A stretch of 64,000 bases of DNA from Acidilobaceae archaeon (GTDB lineage Archaea > Thermoproteota > Thermoprotei_A > Sulfolobales > Acidilobaceae): positions 500,561 through 564,560 of the forward strand of contig JANXEI010000001.1 in NCBI GenBank assembly GCA_025058835.1, read 5' to 3'. The translations under genes and the position numbers were made by a program. The first letter of the stretch is position 1. Each line of letters begins with the position of its first letter. Below the pieces are notes generated by a model, which did not search any database, had not been told where the DNA came from, and worked only from the letters and a program-made list of their open reading frames with translations. Shown in pieces: positions 49,718 through 60,695 of this stretch.

Positions 49718-49966
49718 ATGTTGCCCCCTGTTAGGTGCTTCACCTGCGGCACTCCTCTGGGCCACCTCTGGGAGCAGTTCAAGGCGAGGGTGGCTGCTGG
49801 AGAGGAGGCGGGGAAGGCATTGGACAGCCTTGGGGTGGAGAGGTATTGTTGCAGGAGGACCCTTTACACTGCAGTGACCTATGTGGAGGAGCTAGCCCTC
49901 TACTCTGTGTACAGGAAGGAGAGGGAACAGGTGATCAGGAAGTACTTCCACGTAGGTGAGGGATGA
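49718..49966 (+). CDS. rpo10: RNA polymerase subunit N (Rpo10)
   Basis: Zinc-binding assembly subunit, homologue of Rpb10. The atypical zinc motif is complete: V-R-C-F-T-C-G at residue 7 and R-Y-C-C-R-R near residue 44. 82 residues, slightly longer than usual at the C terminus. Overlaps rps2 by four bases. Confidence 0.96.
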
Positions 49967-50577
49967 TGTCAACTCTCGTGCCAGTGGATATGTACAAGAA
50001 GATGGGCGTGATAGTAGGCACTCAGATATGCACTAAGTATATGAAGAGGTTCGTTTACAAGATAATTCAGGAGGGCTACTACATCTTCGACGTGGCAAAG
50101 GTAGACGAGAGGCTGAGGATCGCTAGCAGGTTCCTCTCCACCTTCGAGCCAGAGAAGATAGCGGTGGTATCGGTTAGGGTCTACGGACAAAAGCCGGCTA
50201 GCATGATGTGTAAGTACGTCGGCTGTAAACCCATTTTAGGACGCTTCGTTCCTGGCACTTTCACGAACCCAAGGCTAGAGTACTACATGGAGCCCGACGT
50301 GGTTCTCCTCACCGATCCCAGGACAGACAAGCAGGCCCTTCTGGAAGCTTTCAAAGCAGGAATACCTGTCGTGTCCTTTGTCGACACGGACAACAAGGTG
50401 GAGATGATCGACCTCGTCATCCCTGCTAACAACAGGGGGAGGAAGAGCCTTGCCCTGCTCTACTGGATACTCACCAGGGAGATCTTGAGGTACAGGAACA
50501 TCCTCGCTCAGGATCAGGACCTCGACGTGGGCCCTGAGGCTTTCATGTCACTGAAGGTGGCAGAGGAGGAGGCCTAG
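49963..50577 (+). CDS. rps2: Ribosomal protein S2
   Basis: Small-subunit protein between head and body. [28 protein letters not shown] and [11 protein letters not shown] are archaeal S2 blocks. 204 residues; the ATG overlaps the rpo10 stop and another ATG follows at once. Rpo6/RpoK and enolase, often in this operon in other archaea, are not here. Confidence 0.96.
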
Positions 50578-50608: not shown

Positions 50609-51466
50609 GTGCAGCACGTGATCAGGCACCCTTATCATGCGGGGAGCTTCTACCCAGAGAGGAGAGATGAGCTCCTCTCAGCCATTCGCGCCAGCTTTCT
50701 CCACCCCCTCGGCCCCGGCCAGCTCCCCTCGGGGCCTGGGGGCCAGAGACTCTCCTACGCCTATCTGGTACCCCATGCAGGCTACATGTACAGCGGCCCC
50801 ATAGCAGCACATGCTTACTACCACCTCTCGCGGGAGAGAGTGCCTGAAACAGTGATCTTGGTGGGACCGAACCACACCGGGCTAGGGCTAGCCGTTTCCG
50901 TGTACCCGCGAGGGAGCTGGAGGACCCCGCTGGGAGATGTGGAGGTAGACGAGGAGGCGGCGAAGCTCATCTCCACGTTCTCAGGCATAGCGGCGCCGGA
51001 CATGAAGGCTCACATATATGAGCACTCTTTGGAGGTACAGCTGCCCTTCCTGCAGTTCGTGCTGGGCGAGAAGTTTAAGATAGTCCCCATAACTGTCATG
51101 GCTCAAGTTCCCAGCATCTCTCGAGCGCTGGCTGAGGCGGCGATGAGAGTAAGGGAAGAGGTTGGAATAGATTCGGTAGTTGTCGCCACTTCAGACCTTA
51201 ACCATTACGAGCCCCACGACGTTGCAGTGAAGAAGGACTCCCTCATCCTAGAGGCATTCCTGAAGCCAGATCCGGAGGGCGTGTTCAAGGCTGCAGAGGA
51301 GTACGGAGTGAGCGCATGCGGCCCCGGCCCTATGGCGATGGTGGCATACATAGCGAGGGCAGCAGGCACTAAGCCCCTTCTCCTCTCCCATGCCACCTCT
51401 GGAGACGTAACGGGAGAGAAGGACTGGGTTGTGGGATACGCAAGCGTCAAGGTGCCCCGATCTTGA
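50609..51466 (+). CDS. MEMO1 family protein
   Basis: A 285-residue member of the MEMO family, related to LigB-type dioxygenases; the archaeal role is not established. The N terminus has P-x-x-A-G-S-F-Y-P, then V-P-H-A-G-Y-M-Y-S-G-P-I-A-A-H, G-P-N-H-T-G, E-H-S-L-E-V-Q-L-P-F-L and a late A-T-S-D-L-N-H-Y, which gather the conserved His and Cys residues with A-C-G-P-G-P. MEMO genes often stand next to mevalonate-pathway genes, as here. GTG start; overlaps the next gene by four bases. Confidence 0.93.
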   Translation: MQHVIRHPYHAGSFYPERRDELLSAIRASFLHPLGPGQLPSGPGGQRLSYAYLVPHAGYMYSGPIAAHAYYHLSRERVPETVILVGPNHTGLGLAVSVYPRGSWRTPLGDVEVDEEAAKLISTFSGIAAPDMKAHIYEHSLEVQLPFLQFVLGEKFKIVPITVMAQVPSISRALAEAAMRVREEVGIDSVVVATSDLNHYEPHDVAVKKDSLILEAFLKPDPEGVFKAAEEYGVSACGPGPMAMVAYIARAAGTKPLLLSHATSGDVTGEKDWVVGYASVKVPRS

Positions 51467-52224
51467 GGTTCCAGATCGCGGTGCCGGCAGTCCTGCTCGG
51501 GGTACCCATTCCAGGTAGCGAGAACCCGGTGATCGTTGCGCCGATAGGGGAGCTGGAGGCTGAGTTCTCCTTCTGGGACTGTCAGGAGCCAAAGCTCGAG
51601 GGGAGGGAGGAGCTGGCAGGGCTCTGGCAGAGGGCTGCTGCGGGCCTCGGCTTGAAGCTCTGCGCCAGGGTGGACGCCCACCGCCAGGATAGGTCGGGCA
51701 ACGAGTACTTTGCCCTCTCTGCAGGCCTGCTGTACGCCCTCTACAGGGAGCACGGCGAGAGGCTTAGCGCCAGCGAGTTGGTGGAGATGGCAGGTCAGCT
51801 CGTGGATGTTGCAGACCCTAGCTGGAGAGTCGTCTACGAGGCCCTGTGGTACTCTGCACACAAAGGTAGTTCCTTTGCTTACAGGAACCTAGAGGAGGCC
51901 TTCGAGCTGGACTTCCGCGTCAAGGCCTCTGTGCGGAGCGTAAGGAGCGCGAGGGGGAGCAGAATCTTCAGGGATCTGGTTGGGGAGGAGCTCTACGGCG
52001 CAGTGGTGCATCTCATGGGCTCTGCCGTCCTGGAGGCCTCCCTGAGGCTAAGGGAGGGGCAAGCTCTCGATGAGGTCATAGAGGCCTTTGCCCCTATTCA
52101 CGACGGCATAGCTAGCATGGTGTGGGGCCTTCCGCCGGAGGGGGACTGCTTGTGGTCTCCAGCCACATATAACAGCTTCTCCCTCCTATGCCTCGAGGAG
52201 CGGGGGGAGGGCAGTGAAGTGTGA
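51463..52224 (+). CDS. Unknown protein, degenerate GHMP-kinase-like, at the mevalonate kinase position
   Basis: A 253-residue protein between MEMO1 and isopentenyl phosphate kinase, the place usually held by mevalonate kinase. The start (A-V-P-A-V-L-L-G-V-P then P-V-I-V-A-P-I) resembles the GHMP opening P-x-K-V-I-L-x-G-E-H, but Lys, Glu and His are lost. R-S-G-N-E-Y-F-A-L-S-A-G-L-L stands where the ATP loop P-x3-G-L-G-S-S-A should be, and no G-A-G-G-G-G block occurs near the C terminus. So a GHMP-derived protein without kinase motifs is suggested, by eye only. It would not be expected to phosphorylate mevalonate. TTG start in a TTGA overlap. Confidence 0.6.
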   Translation: MRFQIAVPAVLLGVPIPGSENPVIVAPIGELEAEFSFWDCQEPKLEGREELAGLWQRAAAGLGLKLCARVDAHRQDRSGNEYFALSAGLLYALYREHGERLSASELVEMAGQLVDVADPSWRVVYEALWYSAHKGSSFAYRNLEEAFELDFRVKASVRSVRSARGSRIFRDLVGEELYGAVVHLMGSAVLEASLRLREGQALDEVIEAFAPIHDGIASMVWGLPPEGDCLWSPATYNSFSLLCLEERGEGSEV

Positions 52225-52957
52225 GATGGCAGTGGTGAAGCTGGGAGGGGGTGCCATAACTCGCAAGAGCGTGCCAGAGACCGTGGACGAGGAAAACCTC
52301 CAGGCCATAGCACAAGCGTTGGCCCGCTTCAAAGCCCGTGACGGGAAGGTAGCACTAGTCCACGGCGGGGGGAGCTTTGGTCACTACGCTGTGAGCCAGA
52401 TCTTGACGGAGAGGGGCAGGTTGTTGCCCCAGGACTCTAGCGCTGTTCAGCTCTCTATGCTGAAGCTCTCTATCCACGTTCTTCGCGCCCTTCAATCTCA
52501 CCGCCTATACCCCACGCTCCACCCTCCCCACTCCCTCTGCCTCTCCCCCAGCCTGGAGAGCTGCTCCTTCGCCCCCCTCGCAAGGGACATCTCCCTAGGC
52601 CTTCTGCCCGTCACTTACGGCGATGCTCTGCCGGACGGCGGGTCCACCAGGATCGTTAGCGGTGACGACTTGACGGCAAAGGCGGCAGAAGCCCTCGGGG
52701 CTGATTGCGCCATATATGTCATAAGGGAAGAGGGCGTGCTGGATGAGAACGGAAACGTGATGAGAACCTTGAGCTCCCTCCAGGAGGTTAAAACGCTAAG
52801 GAGAGAGGGCTTTGACGTAACGGGAGGTATAGTGAAGAAGGTCGAGAGCGCGCTCTTAGCGTCAAAGAAGGTGCAGAACGTGAGGATAGTCGGCGTCTCT
52901 GCCCTTCTCGATGCGCTTGTTGGCAACGAGGTAGGAACGAGGGTAGTGCAGAGATAA
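52214..52957 (+). CDS. Isopentenyl phosphate kinase
   Basis: Phosphorylates isopentenyl phosphate to IPP in the archaeal alternative mevalonate pathway. An amino-acid-kinase-fold protein of 247 residues with V-K-L-G-G-G-A-I-T near the start, H-G-G-G-S-F-G-H-Y (the catalytic His), G-D-D-L-T-A-K-A-A and D-V-T-G-G-I-V-K-K-V-E near residue 210. GTG at 52214 or ATG at 52226 are both possible. It overlaps the preceding gene and precedes IDI-2, the next pathway step. Confidence 0.92.
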   Translation: MKCEMAVVKLGGGAITRKSVPETVDEENLQAIAQALARFKARDGKVALVHGGGSFGHYAVSQILTERGRLLPQDSSAVQLSMLKLSIHVLRALQSHRLYPTLHPPHSLCLSPSLESCSFAPLARDISLGLLPVTYGDALPDGGSTRIVSGDDLTAKAAEALGADCAIYVIREEGVLDENGNVMRTLSSLQEVKTLRREGFDVTGGIVKKVESALLASKKVQNVRIVGVSALLDALVGNEVGTRVVQR

Positions 52958-52989: not shown

Positions 52990-54135
52990 TTGGAGGGGAG
53001 CACGGTCTCTAGGAAGCTTGAGCATGTGAAGCTGCTGCTCGCTAACAAGGTGGAGTCGAGCGAGAGCACCCTCCTCGAGGACGTGGGGATAATTCACAAC
53101 CCGCTTCCTGAGCAGGACCTGGAGGAGATAGATCTGCAGGTGGAGTTCTGCGGAGGGAAGAGGCTAAGGGCCCCTCTCATGATAACCGGCATGACGGGAG
53201 GGCACAGGGACGTTGCATGGATAAACGAGAAGATCGCCGTGATCGCAGAGGAGATGGGGATTGCAATGGGAGTGGGGAGCCAGCGCGCGGCAATAGAGAA
53301 CGAGGGGGTGGCAGAGACCTTCTCCATAGCTAGAAAGAGCGCTAGTAAGGCAGTCATAGTGGCCAACATAGGGGCCCCTCAGCTGGCAAAGGGCTATGGC
53401 CTTAAGGAAGCAGAGAGGGCAGTGGAGATGGTAGAGGCGGACGCGCTTGCCATTCACCTCAACCCCGGGCAGGAGGCATTCCAGGACGAGGGGGACACGG
53501 ACTTCAGGGGGGTGATCAAGAAGATCGTAGAGATCTCCTCCCGCCTCTCTGTGCCTGTGATAGTGAAGGAGGTGGGCACTGGGCTATCCAGGAGGGCCGT
53601 AGCTACCTTGTACAATGCAGGCGTTAGGTGTTTTGACGTAGCGGGGCTAGGAGGGACAAACTGGATCAAGGCTGAGGTCCTGAGATCTAAGGCGAGGCAT
53701 GGAGAGCCCCGCAGGCCCGCTGGAAGCCTTGAGGACCTATGGGGCACCCACACTGCAGTAGCTATAGTGGAGGCGAGGATAGCAGCGCCGGAGGCTTTCA
53801 TAATAGGGAGCGGGGGGATCAGGAACGGCGTTGACGGGGCGAGGGCTATAGCTCTCGGCGCCGACGTGGCAGGCTTTGCCCTCCCTGCACTAAGGGCTTT
53901 GGTGAACGGCGGGGAGGAGGCCTTGAGGAGGCTCCTCGAGGCCATGATCTATCAGATCAAGGTCGTCACGTTCCTTGCCGGCGAGAGGCATGTGAGAGGC
54001 TTGTGGAAGGCTCCCATAGTAGTAGAGGGGAGGCTGAGGGGACAGCTGGAGGGGAGAGGCATAGACGTGGACCGCTATATAAGGGTTCACAGGCTAAGCT
54101 CTTACCTGAGGAGGTCTAGGAGTTGGAGAACATAG
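52990..54135 (+). CDS. fni: Isopentenyl-diphosphate delta-isomerase, type 2
   Basis: FMN- and NADPH-dependent isomerase that interconverts IPP and DMAPP. R-K-x-E-H at the start, I-T-G-M-T-G-G, M-G-V-G-S-Q-R, L-N-P-x-Q-E, V-K-E-V-G-T-G-L-S, G-L-G-G-T-N-W and G-S-G-G-I-R-N-G are the family's FMN- and substrate-binding blocks. 381 residues with a TTG start; an AT-poor gap of 32 bases precedes it. It overlaps the prenyl synthase gene by 13 bases. Confidence 0.95.
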   Translation: MEGSTVSRKLEHVKLLLANKVESSESTLLEDVGIIHNPLPEQDLEEIDLQVEFCGGKRLRAPLMITGMTGGHRDVAWINEKIAVIAEEMGIAMGVGSQRAAIENEGVAETFSIARKSASKAVIVANIGAPQLAKGYGLKEAERAVEMVEADALAIHLNPGQEAFQDEGDTDFRGVIKKIVEISSRLSVPVIVKEVGTGLSRRAVATLYNAGVRCFDVAGLGGTNWIKAEVLRSKARHGEPRRPAGSLEDLWGTHTAVAIVEARIAAPEAFIIGSGGIRNGVDGARAIALGADVAGFALPALRALVNGGEEALRRLLEAMIYQIKVVTFLAGERHVRGLWKAPIVVEGRLRGQLEGRGIDVDRYIRVHRLSSYLRRSRSWRT

Positions 54136-55133
54136 AGTTCACCCTCTTCAAGTACGCCAGGGTAGTGGACCACTACATCTACGAGAGGCTCACAGGGACC
54201 CCGGAGGAGCTATACAGGGCTGCCCTTCACCTGATCAAGGCTGGCGGGAAAAGGCTAAGGCCAACCATAGCGCTGCTCACCGCGAAGATGCTTGGGGGCA
54301 TAGAGGCAGAGAGCAGGGCCATCCCTCTCGCTGCAGCCATCGAGATCTCCCATAACTTCACTCTCGTGCACGACGACATAATGGACAAGGACGAATACAG
54401 GAGAGGAGTGCCCACCGTCCATAAGGTGTGGGGGGAGCCCTGGGCGATATTGGCTGGCGATCTTCTCCACGCTTTTGCCTACAGGTTCATAGTTTTCTCC
54501 ACAGACCACGGTATGAGTAAAGGAGATGCTCACGAGGCCATGAAGGTTCTCACAGTTGCAGGTATAAAGGTGTCCCGAGGACAGGCATATGACCTAATGT
54601 TTGAGAACAGGTGGGACGTCACTCCCGTGGACTATCTCGACATGGTATATCACAAGACAGGAGCTATGATGGAGGCATCGGCAAAGCTGGGCGCTATAGC
54701 AGCGAGGGCCTCCAACGAGGTGATAGAGCTCATGGGACAGTTCGGCAGCCTGCTAGGCGTGGCCTTCCAGGTGAGGGACGATTACCTGGGAGTTTTCGGA
54801 GATCCAAAGAAGACGGGCAAGCCTATTTATAACGACATAAGAAGGGGCAAGAAGACTCTCCTCGTGCTCCTGACCATGAGCATGGCGAGCGAGAAGGAGA
54901 AGGAGTTGCTCATGAGGGTCCTCGATCCTAACGTTCAGAAGAAGGAGGAAGAGGTGCTGAAGGTCGTCGATCTCATGAAGCTCTACGGGGCAGATGTGGA
55001 GGCGATGAAGATCGCGAGTGCTTACGCAGAGAGGGCAAAGGAGATCTTGAGAGAGATAAGAGACATAGTAGATCCTGCTGCAAGGGACGTGCTGATGCTG
55101 ATGGCAGACTACTCTGTGACGAGGGAGAAATAG
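54123..55133 (+). CDS. Polyprenyl (geranylgeranyl) diphosphate synthase
   Basis: Condenses DMAPP with IPP to the C20 chain for ether lipids. K-A-G-G-K-R-L-R-P binds IPP near residue 40; the first Asp-rich motif D-D-I-M-D and the second, D-D-Y-L-G, are in place. A Phe sits five residues before the first motif, as in the Sulfolobus GGPP synthase, favouring C20. 336 residues. TTG start. The product length is inferred. Confidence 0.92.
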   Translation: MENIEFTLFKYARVVDHYIYERLTGTPEELYRAALHLIKAGGKRLRPTIALLTAKMLGGIEAESRAIPLAAAIEISHNFTLVHDDIMDKDEYRRGVPTVHKVWGEPWAILAGDLLHAFAYRFIVFSTDHGMSKGDAHEAMKVLTVAGIKVSRGQAYDLMFENRWDVTPVDYLDMVYHKTGAMMEASAKLGAIAARASNEVIELMGQFGSLLGVAFQVRDDYLGVFGDPKKTGKPIYNDIRRGKKTLLVLLTMSMASEKEKELLMRVLDPNVQKKEEEVLKVVDLMKLYGADVEAMKIASAYAERAKEILREIRDIVDPAARDVLMLMADYSVTREK

Positions 55134-55136
55134 CCG

Positions 55137-55604
55137 TTGGAATCAGCTGAGGACGAATATGCGCTGCCTGAGCTCTACCTAGAAGAGGCGGCTGGAGAGC
55201 CCTGCGCGAGCGTGGATCTCGAGAGGAAGACCTTTGAAATAGGCAAGGGGGAGCTGTGCAAGATCCTCTACGAGGACGGTTGGGAGAGAGCGATAAGTCC
55301 TGAAGGAAAGGCCTTGAAGAGCTTTCTCGTGGTGAGGAACAAGGAAGGGGTTTTCGTGAAGGGTGGCAGCGCCTTGAGGCTGTTCGAGGTAAAGGGATCT
55401 GCGATGAGGTTAATCGCAAGAGAGGGCGAGAGGGTGGAGAGGGGGGAAACGATAGCCCAGCTGGTGAGCAGGAAAGGCGAGCTGCGCTCAGTGAAGAGCG
55501 ACACGGAGGGGGTAGTCGTCTACATAGCTTGGCTGCCAGGAAAGCCAGAGAAGTACGTGTACGTAATCAGTGAAACTGCTCACCTCTTGACTAGAGTAGG
55601 GTAA
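55137..55604 (+). CDS. DUF2118 protein, biotin/lipoyl-like domain
   Basis: A 155-residue archaeal protein of the DUF2118 type. The C-terminal half reads as a lipoyl/biotinyl-like barrel (V-R-N-K-E-G-V-F-V-K-G-G, G-E-x-V-E-R-G-E-T-I-A, T-E-G-V-V-V-Y-I), without a clear lysine attachment motif of the E-A-M-K-M or D-K-A kind, so modification is not expected. Function unknown. It sits between the prenyl synthase and gltX genes, as in several Desulfurococcales from memory. TTG start three bases past the synthase stop. Confidence 0.72.
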   Translation: MESAEDEYALPELYLEEAAGEPCASVDLERKTFEIGKGELCKILYEDGWERAISPEGKALKSFLVVRNKEGVFVKGGSALRLFEVKGSAMRLIAREGERVERGETIAQLVSRKGELRSVKSDTEGVVVYIAWLPGKPEKYVYVISETAHLLTRVG

Positions 55605-57986: not shown

Positions 57987-60695
57987 GTGAGAAGATATGC
58001 ATTTGCGGCCCTCCTCGCCTGGACCCTTTTCATTTTCCTCCTCATACCCCAAGCGTTAGAGCTCGACAAGAGGCTCCAGTACAGCGAAGAGGAGTTCGTC
58101 CCGCCCGGCTCAGAGGGCTACAGAGGCCTCGAGTTGCTCAGATCCCTTAACTACACTGCTGGCGATTACATGGTCGTTTTGTTCTCCCCCAACGACCTTG
58201 CGACGGCAAAGCTGGTAGAGGAGAGGGTGCTCGAAGCTATTGGAGATCGGGAGGCGAGCGTCCTGGGCCCCTACGGCGCGTACGAAAAGATCAGGGAGAG
58301 GGTAAGGGGCGAGCTCATGGAGGGCGTAAAGGCGGCAGTGCAGAGGAGGGCTGAGCTGGTCCGCCTGGCAAAGGAGGCAAAGGCTGGCTATGAGGAGGCC
58401 CGTTCCTTCCTGAACCTCTCCTACGGCCTCGCCCTCGCCTACCTAGCAGTATATCAAGGGGCCCTCTCCGCGGGTCATCCCGCGCCTGCCGACATAGCCT
58501 TTGCTACCCTCGAGCCCCAAATGACCCCCCAGGGCAGGTCCCTGCTCTACCTATTCGACCTCCACTTCCGTAACCTCTCCAGCTCCATGGAGCCGGAGAG
58601 GGCAGCCAGGGAGGCGATGATAAGGACGGTAGGCGTCTTCAGGCCAGAGGCAGTCCGGTTGCTCTCCAGCTTCACGTTTTCCGACTTCAGCAACGCTACG
58701 AGGATTGCAGAGTACGTTTATCGAGTTTCTGGGCTCGAGGGACTCGGCCTCTCCTTCCAGTCCTTCGCGCTCCTCCTTAAGGACCCGGAGAACGGTGCAA
58801 CGGCGCTGGTCTCAGAGAGCCTAGGGGCTGTGGACAGCTGTCTTCAGGAGGCCTTCATGTCGGTCCTTGCCGGCAAGGAGATGGGAGAGGCAATCGGCGC
58901 GTGCGAAGGGCTTATAGATTCGAAAGCTCCCTATCCTGATATTCTACCGTCAGAGCTGAAGGATAGGCTGATATCGGGGGAGAGGGCGGCAGTTTACGTC
59001 CTCCTAAAAGAGAGCGTGGCAATAGGAGAGGCGGCAGAGATCATAAAGAGCGTGAGGAAGAACCTTGAGGGACACACGCGGGAGCTGTTCTTTTACGGCA
59101 GCCTGCCTTTCTATGTAGATCTCAGCGAGAGGATAATTAACGAGATCAGGAAAATTGATGTAGCAACCGTAGTTCTCGTCATCATCTTGCTCGCTGTCCT
59201 CGTGGGCAGCATCTCTGCCCCTCTTGTCATACTGATGGCTACGACTGCCTCTCTCGTCGCTAGCGTGGGAGTCCTGAGCATTGCCGCTCTCTACTTCGAC
59301 GTTCACTACCTTGCGAGGGCGCTCATGGTGCCCATAGTCTTCGGCATAACCGTGGACTACTCAGTCTTCTACCTCTTCAGAGTTGCAGAGGAGAGAGGGC
59401 GGGGGGCCTCCTGGGAGGAGGCCATCTATCTGGCCTGGAGGAGGGCCGGAAGGGCGCTGCAGCTCGGCGGCATCTCTGTCGTCCTTGGTTTCCTCGCCTA
59501 CGCCTTTACTCCTACAGATGCAGTTAGGGGCATAGGCATCGCCCTTAGCATAGCTTCTGCCGTTGCGTTCCTCTCCAGCTATACGCTCTTCCCCGCAGTG
59601 CTATACTTCCTGGGAGAGAGGAGGACTTTCTGGCCCTCTGGCACCATAAATGTGTCAGGGGAGAGGCAGACCAGGCTCTTGAGAAGGGCGGCGGAGCTGA
59701 GCATAAGGTACCGGCTCCCCCTCCTCCTGCTCATGATAGCCTTCATCGTGCTCGGGAGCATTTACCTAGTAGAGATGGGAGTGTCGGGGAACGTTTACCT
59801 CAGCCTGACGGAGGACTCCACTTATGTGGAAGGGAGTAGGGCCGCCTTCTCATCGTTCCCCCCGCAGATCGTTACGCAAGTCATAATAGTGGCACCGAAG
59901 AACGTGACGCTCGACAGCTCTCTCGAGAAGTTGTTCGAGCAGGGACTCGTGAAGAGGGCACAGATCGAGGAGAGGGGAGACTACCTCGTGGTGACGGCAG
60001 GCGTGCCACTAGACCCTCTCGACGACAGGATATTCGACAGCGTGTCCTCAATAAGGCAGTCGTTGCCAGAAGGCGCTCTCCTAACCGGCTTCCCAGCCGT
60101 AAGAGTCGACGTAGTCACAAACATAACTAGAGAGTTCTTCACCTACACTCTCCCCTTGGCCGTTGTGCTCATAACGGCCTATCTCATTGTAGGCATGGGC
60201 TCTGTGCTGGTGCCCCTGAGGCTTCTGATCACTGTGGTGTTCAGCTCCGTGTTCAGCATGGTAGTGGTGGCAATGGTTTTCCATTGGATGATAGGGGAGG
60301 AGATATACGGCACCAAAGTTTCTTCCCCCATCTACTGGGTTATCCCCATCACCGTTCTGGGCATCATGATAACGCTCGGCATGGACTACGACATATTCCT
60401 CACTTCCAGGATCAGGGAGGAACTAGAGGGAGGGAAGAGAGAAGCGGGTGCCATAGTAAGCGCAGTCGAGAAGACGGGGCTAGTGATCACTGTCTGCGGC
60501 ATCATCCTGGCAGGGGCCTTCTCCTCTCTGCTCCTGGCAGAGATCGTTATCATGCAGCAGGCAGGCCTTGCTGTAGCTGTCTCCATCCTCGTGGACACCT
60601 TCCTCGTGAGGCCTGTGCTAGTGCCAGCCATCATGTCGGTCTTCGGGAAGTACAACTGGTGGCCGGGCAGAGGGCTCATCCAGAAGTGGGACTAG
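57987..60695 (+). CDS. MMPL/RND family transporter
   Basis: A 902-residue membrane protein of the MMPL branch of RND exporters. There is one N-terminal membrane helix, a large extracellular domain (about residues 27-385), then five helices, a second external domain (about 590-700) and a final helix group, the duplicated RND plan. G-I-T-V-D-Y-S-V-F in the first half and G-M-D-Y-D-I-F in the second give the conserved Asp-Tyr pairs of the proton path. Likely exports lipids or hydrophobic compounds. GTG start. Confidence 0.88.
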   Translation: MRRYAFAALLAWTLFIFLLIPQALELDKRLQYSEEEFVPPGSEGYRGLELLRSLNYTAGDYMVVLFSPNDLATAKLVEERVLEAIGDREASVLGPYGAYEKIRERVRGELMEGVKAAVQRRAELVRLAKEAKAGYEEARSFLNLSYGLALAYLAVYQGALSAGHPAPADIAFATLEPQMTPQGRSLLYLFDLHFRNLSSSMEPERAAREAMIRTVGVFRPEAVRLLSSFTFSDFSNATRIAEYVYRVSGLEGLGLSFQSFALLLKDPENGATALVSESLGAVDSCLQEAFMSVLAGKEMGEAIGACEGLIDSKAPYPDILPSELKDRLISGERAAVYVLLKESVAIGEAAEIIKSVRKNLEGHTRELFFYGSLPFYVDLSERIINEIRKIDVATVVLVIILLAVLVGSISAPLVILMATTASLVASVGVLSIAALYFDVHYLARALMVPIVFGITVDYSVFYLFRVAEERGRGASWEEAIYLAWRRAGRALQLGGISVVLGFLAYAFTPTDAVRGIGIALSIASAVAFLSSYTLFPAVLYFLGERRTFWPSGTINVSGERQTRLLRRAAELSIRYRLPLLLLMIAFIVLGSIYLVEMGVSGNVYLSLTEDSTYVEGSRAAFSSFPPQIVTQVIIVAPKNVTLDSSLEKLFEQGLVKRAQIEERGDYLVVTAGVPLDPLDDRIFDSVSSIRQSLPEGALLTGFPAVRVDVVTNITREFFTYTLPLAVVLITAYLIVGMGSVLVPLRLLITVVFSSVFSMVVVAMVFHWMIGEEIYGTKVSSPIYWVIPITVLGIMITLGMDYDIFLTSRIREELEGGKREAGAIVSAVEKTGLVITVCGIILAGAFSSLLLAEIVIMQQAGLAVAVSILVDTFLVRPVLVPAIMSVFGKYNWWPGRGLIQKWD

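Follow-up and report, generated by a model that had tools for sequence, protein, structure and literature searches.

A putative pseudokinase derived from mevalonate kinase in an ancestral isoprenoid gene slot of Thermoproteota

Gene organization of the locus

The window analysed here, meaning the whole stretch of 64,000 nucleotides, contains a series of six genes that are all encoded in the same direction. Ribosomal protein S2 (49963..50577, + strand), assigned on the basis of its sequence and conserved neighbourhood, is followed by a MEMO family protein (50609..51466, +; Pfam Memo PF01875, E 1.6e-74), which forms the upstream border of a gene slot. The downstream border of this slot is isopentenyl phosphate kinase, or IPK (52214..52957, +), whose product barely reaches the cut-off of its family, NCBIfam IPPK_Arch NF040647 (120.3 versus 120 bits). 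A type 2 isopentenyl-diphosphate (IPP) isomerase (52990..54135, +; TIGR02151, 380 bits) and a polyprenyl diphosphate synthase of the GGPP synthase type, i.e. a polyprenyl synthetase (54123..55133, +; PF00348, E 1.5e-72), come next. The polyprenyl synthase is followed by a DUF2118 protein of unknown function (55137-55604; Pfam E 4.1e-25), and an MMPL-family membrane protein of 902 residues is encoded close to this lipid gene cluster (57987-60695).

The gene within the slot, referred to here as X (51463..52224, +), encodes a protein of 253 residues that we annotate, from its reading frame, predicted fold and slot, as a GHMP-fold pseudokinase with a probable origin in mevalonate kinase (MVK). The open reading frame called in a preliminary description of this DNA is real, with a TTG start codon that lies inside the MEMO stop codon (TTGA), giving a four-base overlap, and that matches the N-termini of the orthologues. 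The 3' end of X lies at the start of IPK, for which an alternative in-frame ATG is found at 52226.

Predicted fold of the slot protein

The structure of X was modelled with AlphaFold2 from an alignment of 18 orthologues (A1), with a pLDDT of 93.6 and a pTM of 0.91. The top VIA-align row for this model is the MVK 8teb_A (Z 17.1, rmsd 3.5, 238 of 253 residues aligned), which is to be read as tied with the MVK 6mde_A (Z 16.8), as are all rows less than one Z unit apart. The top Foldseek row is the MVK 2x7i (E 3.8e-8), and this same structure was the sole meaningful match of the A1 profile among solved structures (E 2.3e-4). A second member of the family, a protein of 227 residues from family f11 that is 20% identical to the X of the window, was also modelled with AlphaFold2 (pLDDT 93.9), and its best VIA-align rows are again MVKs (Z 13.9). 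On the agreement of AlphaFold2, Foldseek and VIA-align for two members, X is predicted to adopt the GHMP kinase fold, in which a ribosomal S5-like N-terminal half is joined to the GHMP C-terminal half. The GHMP outline that the preliminary description had read from the letters is therefore borne out by structure prediction, which yielded no fold unlike that of GHMP kinases.

Searches with single sequences were far less informative. The X of the window alone matched no family in Pfam or NCBIfam, and none of 35 relatives compared one by one with these databases gave a convincing match. The curated cut-off of the GHMP kinase family PF00288 and that of the MVK model TIGR00549 (163.05 bits) were not reached, with two of the 35 members matching in each case, at best E 0.072 and 0.049, respectively; and the shikimate kinase model matched one of the 35, weakly (E 0.011). 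Pfam and NCBIfam hold no family for X.

Compared with MVK (TIGR00549; structures 6mde and 4hac from M. mazei, 1kkh from M. jannaschii and 8teb, MKbur), X shows the GHMP fold along almost its entire modelled length, but it is some 70 residues shorter (253 versus 325) and lacks the Lys, Glu and His of motif 1, the Ser of the ATP loop, the conserved Asp base and motif 3. In length and fold superfamily it is also similar to the short GHMP kinases of archaea, namely, shikimate kinase and pantoate kinase. The genome from which the window comes carries a separate pantoate kinase-like gene, distinct from X.

Loss of catalytic motifs and residues retained

To locate these losses we used a profile alignment of 58 MVKs with 35 X sequences. 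Since X and MVK are only about 13% identical (hhalign), what follows on columns of the old active site is approximate. First, motif 1, whose Lys, Glu and His are present in 58 of 58 MVKs, is represented by a relic at residues 8-22 (51484..51528, +) with a conserved N21-P22: the Lys position has no aligned residue in X, the Glu is kept in two of the 35 sequences, and the His position is occupied by Pro in 25 of them, His not being among the common residues there. Second, motif 2, which is the ATP loop, survives as a relic (residues 77-86; 51691..51720, +) in which Tyr82 takes the place of the second Ser of GLGSS/GLGTS, a position that is Ser in 58/58 MVKs and Tyr in 28/35 X. Third, Asp115 (51805..51807, +) is aligned with the invariant Glu that precedes HG.PSGID in MVK (Glu in 58/58 MVKs, Asp in 27/35 X) and which we take to be a Mg2+ ligand in that enzyme. 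Fourth, the region from the Asp base to a conserved YR..E strand containing R141 and E144 (51838..51894, +) has Glu126 in the window, where all 58 MVKs have the catalytic Asp of GID; among the 35 X sequences this residue is Asp in nine and Glu in four, such that the Asp base is not conserved in the family. Fifth, the Thr and Gly of motif 3 (KLTGAGGGG) have no aligned residue in X, and a short C-terminal end, residues 227-253 (52141..52221, +), stands in place of this part of MVK.

The conserved set of X comprises N21 (29/35), P22 (33/35), Y82, D115, R129 (28/35), R141 (31/35), E144 (28/35) and G186 (31/35), with position 129 being Trp in the X of the window. By sequence alignment, Asn21, Tyr82, Asp115, Arg141 and Glu144 map at or near the former ATP, Mg and substrate site. 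The absence of the kinase motifs, remarked upon in the preliminary description, holds at the level of the family, as none of the X orthologues examined has intact motifs; the intact MVKs found in the slot of other families would represent the ancestral state. A dead kinase is thus strongly supported by sequence and modelled fold, and naming the slot gene 'mevalonate kinase' by its position, as in automated annotation, would be wrong in genomes with X.

Probable descent from mevalonate kinase

The profile of 31 X sequences aligned with that of 58 MVKs at P 1.2e-9 over 239 columns (hhalign), while the alignments of X with the non-GHMP controls MEMO, IPK, FNI, GGPS and S2 gave P 0.14 or worse. 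The 58 MVKs, which are those of the MVKs found for which loci were returned, fall into two types, A (GEHFVV, GLGSSA or GMGSSA) and B (GEHAVV, GLGTSA), with a support of 100/99 for the split, and the slot MVKs in this tree are of type A. When the profiles compared are about equally deep, being built from sets of 8 to 11 sequences, X is nearest to the slot-type or type A MVKs (P 6.4e-10 to 9.7e-9), ahead of type B (5e-6 to 7e-5) and of three other GHMP sets, namely, homoserine kinase-like (8.6e-6), shikimate kinase-like (1.1e-3) and larger GHMP kinases (0.012), these control sets being named by length and motif rather than by family search. When the 31-sequence X profile was run over 376 open reading frames from 40 loci, 24 slot frames ranked first, followed by three true MVKs. 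Taken singly, the X sequences of L125, L126 and L146 have no significant match to an MVK profile; those of L139 and L147 do match the profile of all MVKs. A chance resemblance between X and MVK is ruled out by Foldseek, VIA-align, hhalign and this ranking.

X could instead belong to another GHMP family whose gene entered the slot and displaced MVK, without being a degenerate MVK itself. The very low identity between X and MVK, and the fact that the single weak match to shikimate kinase has a better E-value than either of the two matches to the MVK model, would fit such a replacement. This is countered by the profile comparison, in which slot-type MVK comes out nearest and far ahead of the homoserine kinase-like, shikimate kinase-like and larger GHMP sets, and by the slot itself, which is that of MVK in other families; we consider replacement by another GHMP protein improbable. 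X is very probably both catalytically dead and derived from MVK. As to its descent, slot-type MVK is its nearest profile relative and has the same gene slot. Slot position, profile proximity and fold together support the earlier suggestion that the protein was made from MVK.

The two MVK types are spread over the phylum (L023-L052, L082-L109), and the order to which the window belongs has both, in different families: f1, f4, f5 and f9 have a type A MVK outside the slot, and f2, f6, f8, f10 and f11 have type B. This distribution suggests MVK replacement or transfer.

Distribution of X and occupancy of the slot

For 151 genomes of the phylum we combined the coordinates of MEMO, MVK, X and IPK. 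X was found in 32 of them, in all cases in the slot and with an intact MVK elsewhere, and X together with a slot MVK was found in none (0/151). The order MEMO>MVK>IPK occurs in 28 genomes and MEMO>MVK without an adjacent IPK in 11 more, which bears out for this phylum the S2-MEMO-MVK-IPK order that the preliminary description had given for many archaea. MVK>IPK occurs in 18; MEMO>X>IPK occurs in 26 by script, or 28 after two split X matches were corrected by hand; X>IPK without MEMO in four by script, or two by hand; MEMO>X in two; and 62 of the 151 have none of the slot arrangements. These counts took matches to profile A4 down to E 1.6e-6, used the better fragment alone for G265 and G275, in which the first fragment lies directly behind MEMO, and treated as absent the IPKs of G201 and G202, which were too weak to list. 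In most archaea, as noted in PMC3857490, MEMO belongs to the mevalonate operon.

Of the 25 genomes sampled from the order of the window, 16 carry X and none has a slot MVK. The ancestral type of arrangement, S2-MEMO-MVK-IPK-isomerase-polyprenyl synthase, is seen in L148 (family f19), and X takes the place of MVK in the slot of L110, L117-L122, L135 and L149. By protein search, X orthologues were found in 19 of 40 relatives. At a threshold of E 1e-5, the 35-sequence profile had matches in 90 of the 117 genomes of the class, a figure in which G097 matches only via its MVK, and G116 probably so, its match being called MVK by the length of the reading frame alone; a figure of 148 of 214 obtained at E 1 also takes in weak matches and MVKs, and cannot serve as a count of X. 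In the phylum sample, X is also present in families f14, f33 and f36, which are classed as 'same phylum'. Profile A4 already includes two f8 sequences and a single sequence from each of f14, f33 and f36, such that later matches in these families are not independent; independent support comes from profile A3, which has no members of these families and matched them at E 3.5e-19 to 2.7e-6.

The position of X after S2, where genes for ribosomal proteins and RNA polymerase follow one another, could indicate a nucleic-acid- or ribosome-associated protein, and the N-terminal half of GHMP proteins does share the ribosomal S5 domain-2-like fold. Yet at L148 the genes for MVK, IPK and the isomerase, for none of which we know of a ribosomal role, hold this same position, and in Pfam and NCBIfam neither the X of the window nor the 35 members matched an RNA-binding family. 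We regard such a role as very improbable.

Family f6 and most of family f9 lack X. In family f3 the order is S2-X-IPK, without MEMO (L112, L113), which weakens MEMO as the only partner of X. A partnership with IPK only is weakened by loci where X has no adjoining IPK (L114, L115, L116, L130, L159), and by family f11, in which the IPK model finds nothing in G182 at E 1e-10, does not list G197-G202 as matched, and reaches only about 1e-11 in G206-G209, with X remaining in its slot. One type of active MVK as the partner is likewise weakened, given that X co-occurs with both types. Since X is found without adjoining IPK, without adjoining MEMO and with either MVK type, genomics points to no exclusive partner. 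In f9, five loci (L128, L129, L132, L136, L137) read S2-MEMO-isomerase, X and IPK both being absent there and IPK lying elsewhere in these genomes; and in G025, of family f3, MEMO lies out of the slot, separated by some 950 bases from a relocated MVK on the opposite strand (C1:1361229-1363927).

Selection and losses

Pairs of X sequences were compared for dN/dS. Among six pairs, three close ones gave pN/pS of 0.22, 0.27 and 0.36, and three distant ones, near saturation, 0.53-0.66; synonymous sites are saturated in places. For comparison, IPK gave 0.23 and 0.25 in two pairs, and MEMO 0.13-0.14. X is under purifying selection.

Two genomes from the genus of the window have nevertheless lost the gene, and in both MVK and IPK stay. 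All that is left of X in G003 is an N-terminal remnant (33 aligned residues, E 9e-10); in G004, MEMO and IPK are 234 bases apart, and no trace of X was found in this interval. The two losses seem to be independent, because the MVK tree places G003 beside the genome of the window, G000, and assigns G004 to the other branch of the genus. Based on these losses, and on the absence of X from f6 and most of f9, its role is dispensable; X is useful but dispensable.

A decaying relic without function would account for such losses and for identities between families that fall to 12-14% relative to the X of the window. However, full-length open frames in many families, pN/pS well below 1 in the three close pairs, a high-confidence fold in two distant members, and residues conserved in 27-33 of 35 sequences all speak against decay, which we consider hardly credible.

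Active kinase and mevalonate pathway

The suspicion that the real kinase lies elsewhere proved correct, as a search of the genome of the window found an intact MVK at G000:C22:373805-374641 (264.3 bits, TIGR00549). The phosphomevalonate dehydratase AcnX, which belongs to the ordinary archaeal route, is encoded at C22:416045-417220. In 21 hand-picked genomes, X is present in the eight with diphosphomevalonate decarboxylase (8/8) and in the 13 without it (13/13). X thus occurs with the classical and with the archaeal mevalonate routes, and also without IPK, and among MVK, AcnX, IPK and the isomerase we found no missing step that it could replace. A changed pathway, which the preliminary description had offered as one reading, is therefore not what X marks: AcnX and IPK are in place, and X is found on both routes and in genomes lacking IPK.

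X might still catalyse a novel reaction, for instance on a phosphorylated isoprenoid intermediate, in a rebuilt GHMP cleft that can do without the GLGSS loop and motif 1. The polar residues conserved at or near the old active site, a purifying selection similar to that on IPK, and a location among pathway genes are in keeping with this idea. However, AcnX, IPK, the isomerase and MVK account for the pathway without X; G003 and G004 dispense with X while keeping MVK and IPK; and, because X is present alongside either downstream route, it cannot be matched to any one missing step. An enzymatic role of this kind seems unlikely, although less so than the other alternatives considered above.

A proposed non-catalytic role in isoprenoid synthesis

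The explanation that we favour, and hold to be somewhat probable, is that X is a pseudokinase derived from the slot copy of MVK and kept for a non-catalytic job linked to isoprenoids. The ancestral state would have been an MVK between MEMO and IPK; a second MVK would have taken over catalysis; and the slot copy would have lost its kinase activity and been retained for this other job. Whatever its date and number of origins, such a takeover by a second MVK, with the slot copy turning into X, is the simplest history. X may bind a pathway metabolite in its remodelled cleft, pair with the active MVK, or both, and by doing so it could tune the flow into membrane lipids.

These components merit different degrees of confidence. 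First, for a regulatory or accessory role in isoprenoid synthesis, to which operon position, conservation and selection point, we see about an even chance; the regulator or scaffold of the preliminary description is plausible in this sense. Second, that this very old pseudokinase family, in its ancestral operon slot, is a ligand-binding regulator of isoprenoid synthesis in Thermoproteota is a tentative proposal. Third, ligand sensing or pairing with MVK specifically, the mechanism that we find most likely, is still a rather doubtful suggestion, drawn from the conserved residues and from the fact that MVK is a dimer; the idea of a ligand comes from residue conservation, from which the X of the window departs at one position (Trp129).

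There are precedents for a GHMP kinase fold reused without sugar kinase activity, namely, the non-catalytic GHMP proteins Gal3p from yeast and XOL-1 from C. elegans, and the Gal3p structure 3v5r is among the VIA-align rows for X. These proteins are eukaryotic and come from other GHMP members, whereas X is archaeal and appears to derive from MVK. Moreover, Gal3p still binds ATP and galactose, unlike X, which has lost the ATP loop.

Our searches of the literature outside subscription papers, including the accessible portions of PMC9385802 and PMC3037878, turned up no account of a pseudo-MVK in this position, and the accessible text of a survey of archaeal mevalonate genes (PMC11052028) makes no mention of an X-like protein. 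Within that literature, the X pseudokinase family may be previously undescribed.

Archaeal membranes consist of isoprenoids and, to our knowledge, the control of mevalonate flux in archaea is poorly known. As a conserved dead copy of the pathway's kinase that still occupies the operon slot of that enzyme, X offers a concrete candidate for this control. It also illustrates clearly how the gene of an enzyme can outlive its catalysis at a fixed address.

Diphosphomevalonate decarboxylase was found in eight of eight f11 genomes tested and in none of 13 others, and Sulfolobales are reported to have PMK and MDC homologues (PMC3533463). On these grounds family f11 is probably Sulfolobaceae. X is present in f11, and in Sulfolobaceae genetics is possible.
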